DNA of 64,000 bases. Origin: Alphaproteobacteria bacterium. Its GTDB lineage: Bacteria > Pseudomonadota > Alphaproteobacteria > Rs-D84. The notes under the pieces are model-generated. The model had not been told where the DNA came from. It ran no database searches and saw nothing but the letters and a program-made list of their open reading frames with translations. This document shows, one piece after another, positions 27,620-49,344 of this stretch (position 1 is its first letter; every line of letters begins with the position of its first letter). The position numbers were made by a program, and so were the translations under genes. Where the stretch lies: assembly GCA_017463185.1 (NCBI GenBank), contig JAFTPS010000010.1, positions 1 to 64,000 on the forward strand, read 5' to 3'.

Positions 27620-28057
27620 TTAATCTGAAACCATAGTTCCACACAGTTCAACGGCATAAAAACCATCGCCTTTTATTTCTGTGCCACAAAATAAACGCCA
27701 TGAACAGTTGCTATTCTCGTTATCACCCACAATTTCTTTCATCGTTTTGTAATCAATGGTGTTTACCAAACATTTTCCGGGTTTGATATACTGCTGGGGA
27801 TTTTCAATGGACAAAAACTTTGCTGTTTTTTCTTTGTTGTTATATATCTGCAAAATTTCGGGTGTTTCATCAACATAAGTTAAAAAGTCCCCGCGTTTCC
27901 CTTCGCTAATGATAATCGCGTTTTCATCCCAGTTCTGACGCTGTTGATTTATAAAAGTGACAAAGTCAGCATCGCCTTCTGGATGTGATGTAAACTCTTG
28001 ATCTTGACCACAAGCAGCCAATGTAATAATTGGCAAAATTAAAAATATTTTTTTCAT
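27620..28057 (-). CDS. Small lipoprotein, 145 aa
   Basis: Signal peptide with lipobox LAAC at Cys16, so outer- or inner-membrane lipoprotein; the residue after Cys is Gly, with no Asp retention signal at +2. The mature part is about 130 residues with four further Cys, three in the C-terminal third (CSWRLFCGTE, VELCGT). I do not recognise the family. AAGGAG precedes the ATG. Candidate attenuator A lies directly upstream, ending in a terminator just before the ribosome binding site. Confidence 0.75.
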   Translation of the reverse strand: MKKIFLILPIITLAACGQDQEFTSHPEGDADFVTFINQQRQNWDENAIIISEGKRGDFLTYVDETPEILQIYNNKEKTAKFLSIENPQQYIKPGKCLVNTIDYKTMKEIVGDNENSNCSWRLFCGTEIKGDGFYAVELCGTMVSD

Positions 28058-28075
28058 TTTATCTCCTTTTTTAAT

Positions 28076-28285
28076 AAAAAAACAAGACCACCAAAAACAG
28101 TGGTCGGGGAGTTCTCAAATCACTTTATCATTGATTCTGTGACCTTCATATATACGTCAACAGCTCACCAACCATAAGTCAGGGCTAACGCAAAAAACAC
28201 CGATAACATCAATTTAACGATGCTTTCGCACCGGATAAAGTGGGCTTGAGAAATGCCCCGAACCCAATCTCTCAGGTTCCCAGAA
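28076..28285 (-). promoter_or_regulatory. Candidate attenuator leader A
   Basis: Minus-strand leader of the lipoprotein gene. Close to its predicted 5' end is an 8-bp hairpin, GAACCTGA-gaga-TTGGGTTC (28259-28280). It is followed by GGGGC-...-AAGCCC. Strand 2 GGTTGGTGAGC (28163-28173) can pair with strand 3 CTCCCCGACC (28102-28111) with one mismatch. Strand 3 runs into the terminator GACCAC...GTGGTC (28086-28105), which has a T7 tail (28076-28085). The ribosome binding site follows. In place of the ACAACAGGG...CCCGAAAGC module of copies B, C and D it has the shorter GAC-gtatatatgaag-GTC. The promoter is not clear. Confidence 0.72.
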
Positions 28286-29534: not shown

Positions 29535-30554
29535 ATGACAAAAAGACAAGATTTTATATTACAATTTATAAAACAGCACCCAAATACCAACAGCGCTGCA
29601 ATCGTTGAATATATGGCAAATGCGTGGGCAGAAAAAAGCTCTCGCGCCACTGTTTTACGTGATATTGATGCACTGATATCTGGTGGAATGGTCGTAAAAT
29701 CTGGCTCGGCACGTGCAACGACGTATGCGCCCGCAATTGATATAGAATCTTACTTTGCAATTGACCCAGACAATCGCACATTGAAACACGAATACTTCAA
29801 TTTTGACATTTGGGACATGATGCACGATTTGTTTAGTGCCAAGGAATTATCCGAACTGGACATGCAAAATAAGACATACAGACAAAACAAAGCAGAATTA
29901 TCCCCAACGGAATTGAAGAAAGAAATTGAACGTCTGACAATTGAATTTGCGTGGAAATCGTCCAAAATAGAAGGTAATACATACACCCTGTTGGATACAG
30001 AACGCCTGATAAAGGATAAAACCGAAGCAGCAGGCAAAAAGAAAGACGAAGCCATAATGATTTTGAATCACAAGGCGGCGCTGGATTTTATTTTTCAGCA
30101 GCCGGATTTCTTTGAACAAATCACAATCGCCAAAATAGAACATATTCACAGATTACTGACAGGGGAACTTGAGATAGAAAACGGTATCCGCCAAAGACGT
30201 GTCAGAATCATTGGTACAAACTATCGCCCACTGGATAACAGACAGCAGATAATGGAAGCGTTGGAAAAAATGGTTGAACTGATAAATGCCTTTACTCATC
30301 CATTGGAAAAGGCACTGGCCGCAGTATTGCTGATTTCGTATATTCAACCGTTTGAAGATGGAAACAAGCGCACAGCACGTACAGTAGGCAATGCGTTATT
30401 GTTGGCCGCCGACTATTGTCCATTGTCCTATCGCAGTGCAGACGAGATAGAGTATAAGAAAGGCATGATATTATTTTACGAGCAGAACGATTGGTCGTAC
30501 TTCAAAACAATATTCACCGACCAGTTCCGTCAAGGAATAGAAAAATATTTCTGA
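29535..30554 (+). CDS. Fic-family protein with N-terminal winged helix
   Basis: 339 residues. Residues 1-70 form a helix-turn-helix of winged type (NSAAIVEYMANAW, then SRATVLRDIDALISGGMV). Residues 135-150 carry the class II inhibitory motif SSKIEG (Ser142 to Gly147). The Fic core motif at 271-282 reads QPFEDGNKRTAR, against the usual HPF.DGN.R..R, so the catalytic His is Gln271. The protein may therefore not transfer AMP, or may act by another chemistry. It most likely represses its own promoter through the symmetric sites at 29466-29534. Terminator at 30559. Confidence 0.85.
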   Translation: MTKRQDFILQFIKQHPNTNSAAIVEYMANAWAEKSSRATVLRDIDALISGGMVVKSGSARATTYAPAIDIESYFAIDPDNRTLKHEYFNFDIWDMMHDLFSAKELSELDMQNKTYRQNKAELSPTELKKEIERLTIEFAWKSSKIEGNTYTLLDTERLIKDKTEAAGKKKDEAIMILNHKAALDFIFQQPDFFEQITIAKIEHIHRLLTGELEIENGIRQRRVRIIGTNYRPLDNRQQIMEALEKMVELINAFTHPLEKALAAVLLISYIQPFEDGNKRTARTVGNALLLAADYCPLSYRSADEIEYKKGMILFYEQNDWSYFKTIFTDQFRQGIEKYF

Positions 30555-33522: not shown

Positions 33523-34461
33523 TTACTGGGCCACTTTCCCACCAAACGTAGAATGGAAATGAACAGTATTGCCAATCGCACCTTCCAGGTCATACACCCC
33601 AAGTTCAGCAGTCGCTTCACTGGCTGTGGCATCTTCACCATAAAAATTCACCGAAACAGACGCGTAACCCATATCGTCCATAGAAATAGGTTCTGACACG
33701 TTCGCCAGTGCAAATGTATTATCTATGTCTACATTATCTGGATTGGAAAATGCAATATTCTGTCCTGTAGTATCTGTGGCACTATTATATCTAACTTTGT
33801 ACCATTTGTCTGCATCCGATTTTGTAAAATCCATTACCAATGTATACGCACCTGTTGTGCCATTGAAAACCAGATTTGCATCATCTGTATTTGTTATCAT
33901 AACATCCGAACCATCCGTAATGTCGGACCCAATCACAGCCACCGCGCTTCCTGTAAAAGAATTTGTACCGTTGACGGTTTGAATCTCTTTATCTGAATTT
34001 CCTGCCAAAAGAGGCGCCCATGTTGCTTCTGTTTCATATCCTGACACCATCGTTTTTACATACATCATACCAAAGTCGGCAAATTTCAGACCGGCACGTC
34101 TGCCATACAGTTGAACCGCACCGTCTTCTAATACTCCTTTATTTTCGCCATCAGGATATTCTATACTTGAAATCTTGCCCGTTTCTGGAACAACATGATA
34201 TGTGACACCGTTTGTTTCGCCTTCTGGCGTTTCCCAAGTTTCTGCTAATGCAATAATTTGTCCTTTGTCATTTGTGCTTACAACATAGTCCCCGTCAAAG
34301 GCAACGTTTTCTACTGCGGTAGCTCCACCGATTTCGGGTATGATTGGTGTAGTGTTTCCTGTAGGTGCCCCGCCAATACCGGCACCACCACCCGAACCGC
34401 CACTGCCACCACCACATGCAGTCAATGCTAAAATAGATGTCAAAATCGCAAGTTTTTTCAT
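33523..34461 (-). CDS. Putative Slam-dependent surface lipoprotein 1
   Basis: 312 residues with lipobox LTAC at Cys16 and a long Gly/Ser linker (GGGSGGSGGGAGIGG). The mature part is all beta. The last 60 residues, with SVSVNFYGEDATASEATAEL and HFHSTFGGKVAQ, match the FYG..A.E..G...FGG end of TbpB-type barrels. First gene of the Slam operon, preceded by candidate attenuator B and a good promoter. GGGAG lies before the ATG. It is probably a surface binding protein; ligand unknown. No TonB-dependent receptor lies beside it, unlike tbp or hpu loci. Confidence 0.75.
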   Translation of the reverse strand: MKKLAILTSILALTACGGGSGGSGGGAGIGGAPTGNTTPIIPEIGGATAVENVAFDGDYVVSTNDKGQIIALAETWETPEGETNGVTYHVVPETGKISSIEYPDGENKGVLEDGAVQLYGRRAGLKFADFGMMYVKTMVSGYETEATWAPLLAGNSDKEIQTVNGTNSFTGSAVAVIGSDITDGSDVMITNTDDANLVFNGTTGAYTLVMDFTKSDADKWYKVRYNSATDTTGQNIAFSNPDNVDIDNTFALANVSEPISMDDMGYASVSVNFYGEDATASEATAELGVYDLEGAIGNTVHFHSTFGGKVAQ

Positions 34462-34478
34462 ATATAACTCCCATGTAT

Positions 34479-34749
34479 AAAATTAGACCGCCATGGGATA
34501 TCAGGCGGTCGGGGAGTTCACAAATCATTCTGTTATTGATTCTGCTGCTTTCGGGCTGCCCCTGTTGTATAGCAAACAGCTCCCCGACTTATGCAAGTCA
34601 GGGATAAATAACGACACAAAACCACAGGAATGACATCGGATAACGATGCCATTAGCATTTTGCACCGAACAGAATAGGCTTGTGACAGCCCCGAACCCAT
34701 ATCCCTATGGATTCATTCATAGTGTATCAATTAGATTAATCAATTTCAA
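34479..34749 (-). promoter_or_regulatory. Candidate attenuator leader B with promoter
   Basis: Promoter on the minus strand: TTGAAA (34744-34749), N17, TACACT (34721-34726). Predicted start about 34714, exactly at the hairpin GAATCCAT-agggat-ATGGGTTC. Next is GGGGCTGTCACAAGCC. Strand 1 CCCTGACTT (34595-34603), strand 2 AAGTCGGGGAGC (34579-34590), strand 3 CTCCCCGACC (34507-34516). Strand 2 can pair with either. Terminator GACCGCC...GGCGGTC plus TAATTTT (34479-34510) overlaps strand 3 and ends just before the GGGAG ribosome binding site. The hairpin loop AGGGATA (34700-34706) is also complementary to TATCCCT (34600-34606), a possible pseudoknot overlapping strand 1. Confidence 0.78.
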
Positions 34750-34787: not shown

Positions 34788-35039
34788 CTAATAAATAAAA
34801 ATTTTTTTATTTTTTTGTGCTGTGCCAATATTGTGCTCTGCATTCAGTATCTGCCTAACTAAATATCGTGCCAAGTCGGGGTCGCTGGTGTGTAGTGAGC
34901 GCAGGTATCTTTTTCCCTTTACCATGCGGCGCAGATAAAAAATTCCATTGCGCACACACAGGTTTTTTGCATAAGTGGATGCCAATTCATTTGATGTAAA
35001 ATTGGTATCAAAATCAGATAAAAAAAGAGCTGTCTTCAT
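34788..35039 (-). CDS. N-terminal fragment of a tyrosine recombinase (probable)
   Basis: 83 residues. The segment LCVRNGIFYLRRMVKGKRYL, then SLHTSDPDLARYLVRQIL, resembles the N-terminal arm of phage-type integrases, with a strand pair and the L.T.d...A..... helix. The core-binding and catalytic domains are absent. It lies 47 bp from tRNA-Gln, a common integration target, which supports a relic of an integrated element. It might instead be an intact small DNA-binding protein. Confidence 0.55.
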   Translation of the reverse strand: MKTALFLSDFDTNFTSNELASTYAKNLCVRNGIFYLRRMVKGKRYLRSLHTSDPDLARYLVRQILNAEHNIGTAQKNKKIFIY

Positions 35040-35085
35040 TGGTTTTCTGCTAAAAACCTAGAATTCAGCCCCGAACATAAATATG

Positions 35086-35159
35086 TGGTTGGGGCGCACG
35101 GATTCGAACCATGATAAAGAGAACCAAAATCTCTTGTCCTACCATTAGACGACACCCCA
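35086..35159 (-). tRNA. tRNA-Gln (TTG)
   Basis: 74 bases on the minus strand with encoded CCA. Acceptor TGGGGTG pairs with CGCCCCA, the D-arm contains TCTAATGGTAGGA, the anticodon loop is TTTTGGT (anticodon TTG), and the T-arm is ATGG-TTCGAAT-CCGT. An integrase-like fragment lies next to its 3' end. Confidence 0.95.
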
Positions 35160-35892: not shown

Positions 35893-36180
35893 TTGATTTC
35901 CGGGGATTTTAATAGTAAAATGCATTTGAATTCACAGGGATAGTGAGTTCGGGCTGTCGTAAGCCTTACAGTAAAGCGGTACGAAAAAACGTACTGAATC
36001 CGCACGAATATAAGATGCGGTGCATTTTTGCACCTTTTCTTATGTCGCACCCCGCACTGCCTGTTTGGTCGGGGGGCCGCCTGCATATACAACAGGGTTC
36101 TTCCCGAAAGCAGTGCGGAATCATTCTTTACTGTGATTTACGAACCTCCCGACCGCCAAACCTGTGGCGGTTTAATTTTG
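35893..36180 (+). promoter_or_regulatory. Candidate attenuator leader C with promoter
   Basis: Promoter TTGATT (35893-35898), N17, TAAAAT (35916-35921). Predicted start about 35928, exactly at the hairpin GAATTCAC-agggata-GTGAGTTC (35928-35950), followed by GGGCTGTCGTAAGCC. Strand 2 GGTCGGGGGG (36067-36076) pairs without mismatch to strand 3 CCTCCCGACC (36145-36154); upstream CCCCG (36050-36054) can compete. Between them lie ATATACAACAGGG and CCCGAAAGCAG. Terminator GACCGCC...GGCGGT plus TTAATTTTG ends at 36180, right before GGGGGCG and the ATG. The only plus-strand member of the four close copies. Confidence 0.78.
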
Positions 36181-36196: not shown

Positions 36197-38626
36197 ATGT
36201 CGGTAAAGTTCAAAGATTTTATATTAGCCTGGTATCGGGCGTATCACCTTTATAACATGGATGACCCGCGCAAACAGCGTTGGATGGACCTGCGGGGCAA
36301 GGCGTTTGAAATAAACGCGCGTGGTGAATATGTTTTTTTGGATGATAAACGCACCGCCACGCAAAAGGGCTGGACCAACCCGAAAACGGGATTGTTGGCC
36401 ACGGATTTGCCAGCCCCCGATTTATCGGACGAGGATTGGCGATATTTTTACGCCTTGTGTCGTACTGCAATCCGCAGTATCAATGACCGCCGGGAAGATT
36501 TGATGCGTAATGACCCAGATAAAAATCCATTACCGATTGATAAATGGTTTGGGGATAAAAATCTGAAAGCCTTTTCCGCGCAAGAGGTATCGCCCGCCAT
36601 CAAAGATAAGTTTCGTTCATTTGCCCTGTTGGTTCGGAACGAGGCGCGTCTGAAAAACAAATTGTTGGACAGTTTTTCTGCGGATTATTCATTGGAAACA
36701 TTTCTGGCGGATTTAATAGACCAGGATTATTCCCGTAATTCCCAGTTCACAATACAAAAAATTCAATCCCTTATTCGTATATTGCCCGGTATGCTGTCGC
36801 CGACATACGATTTCAAAACCGGTGAAAACAAATATCCATTAGAGGATTCAACCCGCACCCAGATTTATAAAATTTTTGCCCCTGCGGCCACGGTTGATGA
36901 CGCCGACGCATTGTATGGCGAATTTGATTCTTTGTCAGCAGCGTTGGACCCCGCGAACGAGCAAATCAACCCTGCCCAATTGCGCCAGTTCCAGGACCCC
37001 AGTGTTTATCGTGAAATATTAAAAGCACTGTATGCGGCCGATAAACCGGAAAAAAAATCGTCTTTTTATTCCCAGTTTGCGTCCGCCGGCGGTGACGAAA
37101 TTACAAACTATATGAGCCAGGTTATAACCGGCAATAATTATGAATCCGGCGCAAATGAACTGATACCAAAACTTAGCAAACAGCAAAATACCCTGGAAAA
37201 AATCAAAGAAAAAATTGATGATTTCACGGACGAGCATTTTAAACGATTGACCGACCGTGCGGCACGCCATATTTACATAGACGTCAACGCGCAACCAATT
37301 GTAAACGCTATTGTCAAAGAAAAGATTTTGCCCACGGACGGCATTTCAAAAATTCTTGAAAAAAAAGAGGATATCAAAAAACGCGTTCAGTCCAAACAGC
37401 CGTCTGCTAAAAAAGGCTGCGACTTTTTGTTTGAAGCCCTGGAATACATCAAATCATCTGGCGATATGGACGCGGCATTGGACGGTGCTTTTCGTAATGG
37501 TCGCAAGGCAGAATCTATCGCGTTTGAGGTAATAAAATACGCTATTTCAAAACACAAAGTAGCCGAGGCAAAAACTGCATTAGAGGTCTTGTCCGTAATG
37601 CGATATGATACATTTTCATCTGCGCACTGGACCGAATTTCACAAATCCCAGACTCCAATTTTTGGGGATGATAAATTATCTTTTAACAAAGATAGTGAAT
37701 CTGTATCCTTTATAACGCGTGCGCTGGATAAAGCGTTTTATTTGGGTGTAAATGGAATGTTTTGGCTGGGGGTAATGGGGCGTAATATCATCCAGCATCG
37801 TCGCGGTAAAATGGATATGAACGATATGTCGCGAATGGAAAGTGCGTTGGACAAAATAAACACAGACAGTGCGTCTTTTACCGATTTGTCGCGTGCGCAA
37901 CGGGAATATACGGAAATTCACGGGCGACTGAATACGGCCCGTGATGGCTTTGGTTATGCCATGTTGCGCCGTGCCGAGCGCGATGATTTGAACAATCGTC
38001 TGACTGAATTGAACGCGCGTCGTGCGGTGGCACGCCTGGATGCGGGGGCGGATTTGGGGGCGATTGACGATGAAATAGCCCGAATTCAGGATGAGTTGGC
38101 CCAAATTGCCGCATTGGAAACACGACATTCTGCGGATTTTGCACGCCTTGACAACCTAGACCGCGATATTACGGATTTAGAAAATCAAATAGAAGCTGAA
38201 AAATCTGTTTTGGCCACTATGGCGACTGCGCCCGACATGACCGTCAATGCCCAACGCGCAAAAATAAAAAATCTGAATTTGCGATTGGGGGCGTTGCGTG
38301 TGTCCAAGAAATCATACCAGGCTGATTGTGATAATTATTTGGAATTGGAACGCGAAGACCGTGTCGCCCAGGAATTATACCAACGCCTGCAATCGGCTGC
38401 CGACCGTGGCGCGGCACGAGCAACGGAATCCAAACCATATAATGCCCCAAAATCAGATATTCAAAATATGCAAATGCTGATGGCATTTTGGAACGCGGTC
38501 AATGGATACACCCGCGGTCTGGATGTAAATTCGTATAATATATTCAAAAATATCAAAGATGTCCGAAAATCGTCCAATTTACAGAAAACTTTTAACGATA
38601 TGTTTGACTCGGGGCGCATCGTATAA
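36197..38626 (+). CDS. Large coiled-coil protein, 809 aa
   Basis: I do not recognise this protein. No signal peptide or membrane helix is convincing, though one hydrophobic patch (AFYLGVNGMFWLGVMG) lies near residue 520. The N-terminal 500 residues are mostly helical and charged. Residues about 555-745 are strongly coiled-coil, rich in Glu, Arg, Leu and Asp (RDDLNNRLTELNARRAVARL and following). The start at 36197 has GGGGGCG 4 bases upstream; ATG 36185 is the alternative. It may be structural or secreted by an unknown route. Preceded by candidate attenuator C; no operon partner. Confidence 0.75.
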   Translation: MSVKFKDFILAWYRAYHLYNMDDPRKQRWMDLRGKAFEINARGEYVFLDDKRTATQKGWTNPKTGLLATDLPAPDLSDEDWRYFYALCRTAIRSINDRREDLMRNDPDKNPLPIDKWFGDKNLKAFSAQEVSPAIKDKFRSFALLVRNEARLKNKLLDSFSADYSLETFLADLIDQDYSRNSQFTIQKIQSLIRILPGMLSPTYDFKTGENKYPLEDSTRTQIYKIFAPAATVDDADALYGEFDSLSAALDPANEQINPAQLRQFQDPSVYREILKALYAADKPEKKSSFYSQFASAGGDEITNYMSQVITGNNYESGANELIPKLSKQQNTLEKIKEKIDDFTDEHFKRLTDRAARHIYIDVNAQPIVNAIVKEKILPTDGISKILEKKEDIKKRVQSKQPSAKKGCDFLFEALEYIKSSGDMDAALDGAFRNGRKAESIAFEVIKYAISKHKVAEAKTALEVLSVMRYDTFSSAHWTEFHKSQTPIFGDDKLSFNKDSESVSFITRALDKAFYLGVNGMFWLGVMGRNIIQHRRGKMDMNDMSRMESALDKINTDSASFTDLSRAQREYTEIHGRLNTARDGFGYAMLRRAERDDLNNRLTELNARRAVARLDAGADLGAIDDEIARIQDELAQIAALETRHSADFARLDNLDRDITDLENQIEAEKSVLATMATAPDMTVNAQRAKIKNLNLRLGALRVSKKSYQADCDNYLELEREDRVAQELYQRLQSAADRGAARATESKPYNAPKSDIQNMQMLMAFWNAVNGYTRGLDVNSYNIFKNIKDVRKSSNLQKTFNDMFDSGRIV

Positions 38627-48252: not shown

Positions 48253-49080
48253 TTAATCTTCTATCCATTGTGGACTGGAACATAATTTGTTCATTTTCAG
48301 ATGTTTTTTCAGGTCTTTTATTTTTCCATCCGTACCTTTTGAGCCGTCGTACATTGCAACCTCGCCATTGTTAAACAGTTTACAACAAAACCACCATGTC
48401 GTGGGGGATTCTGAATCAGCCTCTTGTGCGATTAAACATTTCCTGGATTCTACATCACAATCAAAATACAGGTCTTTTTCGCCGCCTAGTGCTTGGATTA
48501 ATTGATGGTTTACGCATCTTAAATATAAATTTTCTTGCAGTTCTTGCAGATTGATTTTACGTATTGTATGGGAATCTTTTTCCATTTTTTGCCATGTTCC
48601 GTTTTTGCAAATTATTTTTTCTGTTGATACTTCAATTTCATATTTTTCCCCAGTATACGCATTTTTATGTTCAACAATGTGAAAAGCACCGTCTGGCGTA
48701 CAACTTTCACCAATAACTGGTGCACAGACAGTGTATTCTGGATTTGTTTTACATAAATCTAAATATTTTTCTTGTTCCTTGATAAGGCGAACGGATAACT
48801 CTGCGCATCTGTTATATATACTTTCTTCATCCATTGACAGATTGCATTGCAATAAAGCGTACATGCAATTATATCCGAATTCGTACGCAGAATATCCAGC
48901 GGCGGGTTTCCATACATTTTCTCTGTATTTATAAAAACAGTCTTTTGCCTCTGATGGTAAAATGTCGCTTCTTAAAACATCACCCACGACCCCCGGATAC
49001 CAATAGGTAAAATCATCCATTTCAATTGCATAGCCATTGATTGTAAATAAACACAGACAAACAGATAAAAATATTTTCAT
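48253..49080 (-). CDS. Secreted Cys-rich protein, 275 aa
   Basis: Signal peptide of about 18 residues (ending GYA-IE); start at 49080, behind GGAG. The mature protein has about 14 Cys scattered as pairs, indicating disulfides, including NCMYALLQCNLS, SCTPDGAF and WWFCCKLF. No known domain. Periplasmic or surface location is likely. Its mRNA begins with candidate attenuator D, whose terminator ends just before the ribosome binding site. Convergent with truA. Confidence 0.75.
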   Translation of the reverse strand: MKIFLSVCLCLFTINGYAIEMDDFTYWYPGVVGDVLRSDILPSEAKDCFYKYRENVWKPAAGYSAYEFGYNCMYALLQCNLSMDEESIYNRCAELSVRLIKEQEKYLDLCKTNPEYTVCAPVIGESCTPDGAFHIVEHKNAYTGEKYEIEVSTEKIICKNGTWQKMEKDSHTIRKINLQELQENLYLRCVNHQLIQALGGEKDLYFDCDVESRKCLIAQEADSESPTTWWFCCKLFNNGEVAMYDGSKGTDGKIKDLKKHLKMNKLCSSPQWIED

Positions 49081-49096
49081 TTCCACTCCAATTATA

Positions 49097-49344
49097 AAAT
49101 TAAACCGCCGTGGAATTTGGCGGTCGGGGAGTTGGTAAATCATTATCGTACTGATTCTGTTGCTTTCGGGTCAGCCCTGTTGTATAGCGAACAGCCCCCC
49201 GACTGCTTTTACAGTCAGGGATAAATAACGATGCAAAACCACAGGAACATTATCGGATTTACGACGCGCCTTTATTTTGCACCGACGATAACAGGCTTAC
49301 CACAGCCCCGAATCCAATTCCCATCAGATTCAATTTGAATTCTA
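49097..49344 (-). promoter_or_regulatory. Candidate attenuator leader D
   Basis: Weak promoter on the minus strand with -10 TAGAAT (49339-49344). The predicted start is near the hairpin GAATCTGA-tgggaa-TTGGATTC (49310-49331), followed by GGGGCTGTGGTAAGCC. Strand 1 CCCTGACTG (49212-49220), strand 2 CAGTCGGGGGGC (49194-49205), strand 3 CTCCCCGACC (49122-49131). The module GCTATACAACAGGGC...CCCGAAAGC lies between strands 2 and 3. Terminator ACCGCC...GGCGGT plus TTAATTTT (49097-49124) overlaps strand 3. The stretch CCTGTGGTTTTG...TCGTTATTTATCCC is nearly identical to copy B. Confidence 0.78.

Follow-up and report, generated by a model that had tools for sequence, protein, structure and literature searches.

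The C4 antisense RNA keeps phage P1 dormant; it covers a ribosome-binding site, and in P1 the released RNA represses. Terminator-controlled riboswitches and attenuators are 5' leaders that form or disrupt an intrinsic terminator by folding in alternative ways. The published picture of a further RNA, sRNA-Xcc1 (Rfam RF02221), is that of a trans-acting sRNA placed under virulence regulators and having many predicted targets, and the title of the main paper on it, by Chen in 2011, reportedly calls it a trans-acting sRNA. In the P1 record the elements of the C4 system lie in the order a1, b1, c4 RNA, a2, b2, icd and ant. The C4 RNA of phages P1 and P7 is processed by RNase P (Hartmann 1995, as cited in the available text of PMC5320573), and the same text describes multi-copy C4-derived sRNAs in Acinetobacter baumannii that have a variable a', are apparently cut from longer transcripts and have unknown targets. 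Northern blot and RACE detected Xanthomonas sRNA-Xcc1 as an RNA of 88 nt (PMC2996969, in the sections available), and in Xanthomonas integrons it lies upstream of symE (PMC12444791, likewise in part); the available portions of PMC6557892, PMC12189769, PMC2864571 and PMC12197685 were also consulted. Within the searched literature, which did not include Chen 2011, the terms 'sRNA-Xcc1' and 'C4 antisense' occur together only in a Xylella vesicle paper that tabulates both families.

The 64,000-nucleotide stretch of alphaproteobacterial DNA analysed here (the window) carries four related leaders. They probably represent a C4-like self-antisense system related to sRNA-Xcc1 that has been turned into transcription attenuators for surface genes, a reading drawn from sequence comparison.

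Four structured leaders in the window

The first-pass annotation of the window described four covarying 8-bp hairpins (here P0) located exactly at predicted transcript starts. All four stems are present in the sequence, and they form the 5' ends of four copies, A to D, of one ~210–260 nt sequence (Table 1). The 8-bp length holds for copies A and D, while the stems of copies B and C have 9 bp; the loops AGGGATA (A) and GAGA (D) stand as given, whereas those recorded as AGGGAT and TGGGAA for copies B and C are corrected to GGGA, a GNRA loop, and the start of copy D moves from 28280 to 28279. Across leaders P0 has 8–9 bp and usually a GNRA loop. After it, the layout read from the sequence consists of a1 in a hairpin loop, b1, a ~90-nt core with complementary b' and a', and a terminator-like hairpin ~27 nt before the start codon.

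Table 1. Positions of the four leader copies in the window and of the genes that follow them.
Feature	Position	Strand	Remarks
Copy A, P0	35928..35950	+	8 bp, loop AGGGATA; predicted transcript 5' end
Copy A, address segments	35957..35976	+	a1 TCGTAA (hairpin loop), b1 CAGTAAAG; exactly complementary to core strand
Copy A, sRNA-Xcc1-like core	36067..36154	+	RF02221 29.5 bits, E 0.23 (loci scanned); pattern match; outer stem GGTCGGGGGG/CCTCCCGACC
Copy A, variable core strand b' a'	36126–36143	+	
Copy A, terminator-like hairpin	36152..36178	+	ACCGCC/GGCGGT + T-rich tract; overlaps core 3' strand
Gene after copy A	36197..38626	+	813 aa if start is 36185; no Pfam match; no signal peptide (crude rule)
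Copy B, whole leader	34481..34714	-	
Copy B, P0	34693–34714	-	
Copy B, a1/b1	34668–34685	-	
Copy B, core	about 34588 to 34507	-	
Copy B, terminator-like hairpin	34486–34510	-	
Gene after copy B	33523..34461	-	Lipoprotein-like, 312 aa; no Pfam match
Copy C, whole leader	49095..49331	-	
Copy C, P0	49310–49331	-	
Copy C, a1/b1	49285–49302	-	
Copy C, core	49114–49204	-	Covariance model, 36.1 bits, genome E 5e-5; terminator-like hairpin after it
Gene after copy C	48253..49080	-	Secreted-like, 275 aa from ATG at 49080; mechanical ORF begins within the leader
Copy D, whole leader	28073..28279	-	Shorter centre
Copy D, P0	28260–28279	-	
Copy D, a1/b1	28235–28251	-	
Copy D, core end	28102	-	Terminator-like hairpin after it
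Gene after copy D	27620..28057	-	Lipoprotein-like, 145 aa; no Pfam match

The stretch between copies A and B (34788–35159) contains a tRNA gene (35089–35159, minus strand) and a short ORF with a weak, below-cut-off match to DUF6538, a domain of phage integrases, and is a possible integration remnant. Elsewhere in the window, the ORF at 29535–30554 has a Fic domain and a weak Penicillinase_R match below the cut-off.

Copies A to D each fold far better than shuffled sequences (z -4.7 to -6.5, with 0/200 shuffles doing as well). Covariation was examined in an alignment (A3) for which 118 unique loci were reduced to the 74 with a hairpin score of at least 8 and, after thinning to <80% identity, to 53 diverse leaders. 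An 8-helix structure of 53 pairs is paired in 94.0% of the cells of A3, and 31/53 pairs have changes on both sides. On none of five measures do any of 500 shuffles match the observed value, and pairing falls to 35–53% when partner columns are shifted by one to three. The AATCA/TGATT stem is invariant by construction under strict 3' motif selection and hence uninformative.

P0 itself is paired in 92.6% of A3 cells, and 5/9 of its pairs are changed on both sides. The loci were picked by the 3' motif, which does not contain the hairpin, but also for a good P0, which biases the paired percentage upwards and affects the double changes less. For 57 of the 74 leaders, the distance from the end of the best TATAAT-like hexamer to P0 is 6 or 7 nt, compared with about 7 expected per shuffled set, and a TTKACA-like box lies at -36 to -31, about 17 nt upstream of the TATAAT-like box; this count covers motif-found leaders and leaves out model-found loci, where the hairpin finder takes unrelated hairpins in many rows. 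Upstream of the RNA, these promoter-like boxes alone stand out. The spacing that the first-pass annotation gave for the promoters of copies B and C is, by eye, good in B and about 16–17 nt in C; it is good in copy A and weak in copy D. A start of transcription at the hairpin is a prediction from these boxes. The earlier proposal of selection on the RNA itself is supported, in that the hairpin and most of seven further helices covary and the promoter-like boxes are placed for a start at the hairpin. These observations support a transcript that would begin at P0 as a leader of several covarying helices and be under selection as RNA.

P0 is nevertheless the least telling part of the leader, because it changes slowly between close relatives (24/462 sites) compared with the fast-changing internal segments and their pairing strands. 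The functional reading, which goes beyond the first-pass annotation, rests on these internal segments together with the terminator-like hairpin and the core that resembles sRNA-Xcc1.

An sRNA-Xcc1-like core

At the gathering score, Rfam identifies only rRNA and tRNA in the whole window, with neither RF02221 nor the C4 model RF01695 among the matches. The 3' ~90 nt of the leader resembles sRNA-Xcc1 below the curated gathering cut-off of the 87-position model (53 bits), which copies A and C do not reach (Table 1). At a permissive threshold, sRNA-Xcc1 matches were obtained in 6/8 loci scanned, the best at 51.5 bits. Genome-wide searches at E ≤0.1 gave full-length matches (positions 1–87) in 26/59 genomes and in 0/14 control genomes, and one relative among the 59 lies above the cut-off, at 57.8 bits. 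The genome of the window itself has eight RF02221 matches at E ≤0.1, which include copy C along the full model (1–87); copies A, B and D lie outside this set. In a sample of the phylum, 58/398 genomes have an sRNA-Xcc1 match at E ≤0.001, 39 above the cut-off.

In the window's genome and in relatives the core aligns along the full sRNA-Xcc1 model, and both kinds of RNA adjoin a gene start. The window copies differ in their 5' hairpin and terminator-like hairpin, in having no detected ribosome-binding-site target, and in preceding chromosomal genes with mostly secreted-like products. At one locus (L177), two sRNA-Xcc1 copies lie 1.3 kb apart, both above the cut-off, and the two proteins that follow them (L177, L255) appear SymE-like.

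Comparison with the C4 system

In sRNA-Xcc1 loci of other Pseudomonadota, the variable core strand is complementary to an upstream segment and to bases around the ribosome-binding site of the next gene. A donor-swap test scored exact two-part matches and counted a locus when its own partner was in the top 5%. The own upstream partner beats the swaps in 46/56 loci; at the ribosome-binding site the own partner is top in 23/56, compared with 2.8 expected and with 3 and 5 in two control regions. A duplex-energy test of the downstream partner gave 8/29, weaker than the exact-match result from the enlarged set, because swapped partners also share conserved complementarity. The 43 downstream proteins scanned in the phylum include antirepressor-type phage regulators (Bro-N 5, Rha 4, P22_AR_N 1, KilA-N 1) and members of the SymE toxin family (4).

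The window's genus retains the upstream complementarity, which is present in 46/57 model-found loci (a few of them of the same order outside the genus) and 96/110 motif-found loci; in all four window copies, a1 and b1 are complementary to a' and b'. At the ribosome-binding site, exact matches number 7/57 in the genus and order (2.9 expected), and two duplex-energy regions give 13/110 and 11/110 in the genus (5.5 expected). Complementarity to this site in the window's genus is little or none, at most slightly (≤ ~2.4x) above chance.

The arrangement of promoter, a1, b1, an RNA with b' followed by a', and a gene is that of C4 of phages P1 and P7 (RF01695, c4-a1b1 motif). The sRNA-Xcc1 loci outside the window's genus also share a2 and b2, which lie at the ribosome-binding site, and the antirepressor genes that follow. 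The core sequence is different, however, and the window's genus lacks a2 and b2 at that site, with a terminator-like hairpin in their place. The RF01695 model has no match in 8 leader loci (E ≤5) and, at E ≤1, none that overlaps a core in the 16 sRNA-Xcc1 loci scanned, so the same working layout does not imply common descent. In A. baumannii, too, a single genome carries numerous C4-like RNAs that vary in a', although the available text of PMC5320573 describes them without terminator leaders before envelope genes.

One locus of the window's genus (L145, 1440–1630) has a core segment GTGTTTAG that pairs with upstream CTAAACAC and a core segment CTTTGTCG that is complementary to CGACAAAG directly before the ATG. 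Its gene is Rha-like, the one Rha match among 41 downstream proteins. The locus likely represents the classical, ancestral sRNA-Xcc1 form, which fits descent of the leaders from a phage-type ancestor.

Divergence of the address segments

Comparisons of 21 non-overlapping pairs of close relatives reveal that a1/b1 and their partner strands differ at 157/514 sites (0.305), whereas the rest of the leader differs at 282/3757 (0.075). Pairing of a1 with a' and of b1 with b' is nearly exact. In A3, all seven pairs of the b1/b' helix have changes on both sides, and G-U is rare in the address helices, with 2/355 standard cells in b1/b' compared with 56/413 in P0. This scarcity may stem from strict selection that demands exact pairing, or from both strands being replaced as blocks.

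The combinations are also private to each copy tested. In a relative's genome all 15 copies examined have distinct a'/b' combinations, and each core there pairs best with its own 5' half (0/210 cross pairs equal the own score). All six copies tested in the window's own genome pair best with themselves; copy A scores 15 on its own segments and 0–5 and 12 with the five other tested copies, 12 being the nearest cross score. A search of the own genome with copies B, C and D for further exact targets in the searched order gave none for B and D besides their own leader 5' half, and ten matches for C, eight of them scattered and unordered.

The fast divergence of the paired segments is read as selection for specificity, because a helix with a structural role alone would not usually change faster in its paired segments. 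Replacement of blocks between the inverted segments could contribute to this divergence, and distinct address combinations alone could arise by drift.

Terminator-like hairpin and downstream genes

After the core, 110/115 motif loci (6–10 in shuffles) and 44/57 model-found loci (1–4 in shuffles) have a stem that contains GC and leads into a T-rich stretch, the remaining 13/57 having no recognisable one; only 4/56 loci from the rest of the phylum possess such a hairpin. The stem ends a median 27 nt before the start codon (quartiles 25–31; 97 loci), and because this gap hardly fits a separate promoter, the gene would depend on read-through. Interruptions in the T tracts of copies A, B and C may make for weak termination.

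Folding was examined in 68 leaders picked for a good P0 and terminator. In 68/68 of them the terminator is formed in the minimum-energy fold, whereas the outer stem of the core is absent from it. The terminator-like hairpin shares nucleotides with the 3' strand of this outer stem (median 3 nt, at least 2 nt in 64/68), and forcing the stem in the full-length leader has a median cost of 16.1 kcal/mol, such that the open state would need a strong helper or kinetic folding. The outer stem has been kept in evolution, with 9/9 pairs in 46/57 and 52/56 loci (swaps 0.298 and 0.191). The anatomy is thus that of a transcription attenuator, in which a terminator-like hairpin lies between leader and gene and overlaps an alternative helix.

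By a crude rule, 90/115 downstream proteins are signal-peptide-like, as are 24/56 control window ORFs, so the figure represents an enrichment rather than a clean class. The proteins include matches to OMP, porin, autotransporter and YadA-anchor families, with one member each, and have no common pathway; PADLOC and PHROG scans of them returned nothing useful. In one genome (G014; L009, L019, L023, L026, L028, L030 and others), leaders precede secreted proteins with a start like ASIISRGFFDE, which make up a family of paralogous surface proteins, every one of them behind a leader of its own.

Distribution

The strict 3' motif occurs in 6 copies in the window's own 1.04-Mb genome, and the sRNA-Xcc1 covariance model adds six places, for at least 12 copies. 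Among relatives the motif is present in 11/40, all of the same genus, with 18 copies in one genome. It occurs in at least 113 stretches of a species-level genome collection; among the matches listed, the titled records are for the most part uncultured Alphaproteobacteria, many of them from the herbivore gut, or bacteria labelled Rickettsiales. Three leaders (L036, L081 and L110) come from records that bear the labels Clostridia, Endomicrobiia and Gastranaerophilales; these contigs may be misbinned. Another (L144) lies upstream of a secreted-like protein gene in an IMG/VR contig and is either a prophage copy or part of a host contig classed as viral. A natural deletion variant (L017, 1300–1540) is a leader that lacks its middle, b1 and the greater part of the core 5' half included; the gene after it resembles the gene after L002.

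Proposed mechanism and alternatives

By default, a1 and b1 would clamp the variable strand, the outer stem would stay open, the terminator would form, and transcription would stop after a ~230-nt leader RNA. A clamp is proposed because evolution has kept the outer stem even though the minimum-energy fold is the terminator. It would most simply be relieved by core RNA from earlier transcripts of the same locus occupying a1/b1, which is the favoured candidate; alternatively, another RNA or a protein could bind a1/b1. With the clamp relieved, the outer stem of the core would close, the terminator would break, and RNA polymerase would enter the surface-protein gene. We infer this switching step from the modelled folds. 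Unlike the repression in P1, the released RNA might activate here. Elsewhere in the Pseudomonadota this RNA more likely works in the manner of C4 and covers the ribosome-binding site of a gene of the antirepressor or SymE type; the window's genus would have exchanged this target for a terminator and would use many differently addressed copies. The leaders share with terminator-controlled riboswitches and attenuators the alternative folds of a 5' leader around an intrinsic terminator, but the controlling role of a metabolite or tRNA seems to be taken by a private antisense address.

Other readings of the same features have to be weighed. The core may belong to a stand-alone trans-acting sRNA with its own terminator, the gene behind it being read by leakage only and not a target. 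The 88-nt species found for sRNA-Xcc1, the trans-acting label reportedly in Chen's title and the terminator-like hairpin in nearly all motif loci would suit such an RNA; we nevertheless hold it unlikely, as the tightly set gap to the start codon leaves little promoter room, copies B and D have no other exact genome target in the searched order, and signal-peptide-like proteins predominate downstream. It is quite improbable that the leaders are riboswitches in which the terminator is controlled by a conserved core loop through binding of a small molecule or protein, the a and b helices being merely structural. Structural helices would not be expected to diverge about four times faster than the rest or to avoid G-U as b1/b' does, and the downstream proteins lack a common pathway, even though the conserved TATACAACAGGG / GAAAGC stretch of the core and the anatomy of leader plus terminator would suit a riboswitch.

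A structured repeat that is mobile and brings a promoter to the genes before which it settles, with no regulatory switch, would account for the multiple copies and their patchy occurrence by the strict motif among relatives. Such an element is very improbable given that only promoter-like boxes stand out upstream, outside the RNA, that the distance to start codons is fixed, and that compensatory evolution takes place within the RNA. The C4-like attenuator is therefore preferred, and its layout gives sRNA-Xcc1 a specific target, namely its own neighbour gene.

It is possible, and suggested here only tentatively, that a domesticated phage immunity module has become a genome-wide set of mutually insulated attenuators, with private two-part addresses that recognise the own leader alone, trans action of the terminated RNA on later transcripts of the same locus, and diversifying selection that keeps the addresses apart; the copies compared are six in the own genome and 15 in a relative. 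If so, surface-protein genes would be tuned independently, and the Rfam family sRNA-Xcc1 would be, instead of a general trans-acting regulator, the half of a C4-type system that processing yields. The leaders likely exemplify phage-type antisense control that a small bacterial genome has multiplied into orthogonal surface-protein switches, and may offer natural sets of non-crossing RNA pairs useful for synthetic biology.
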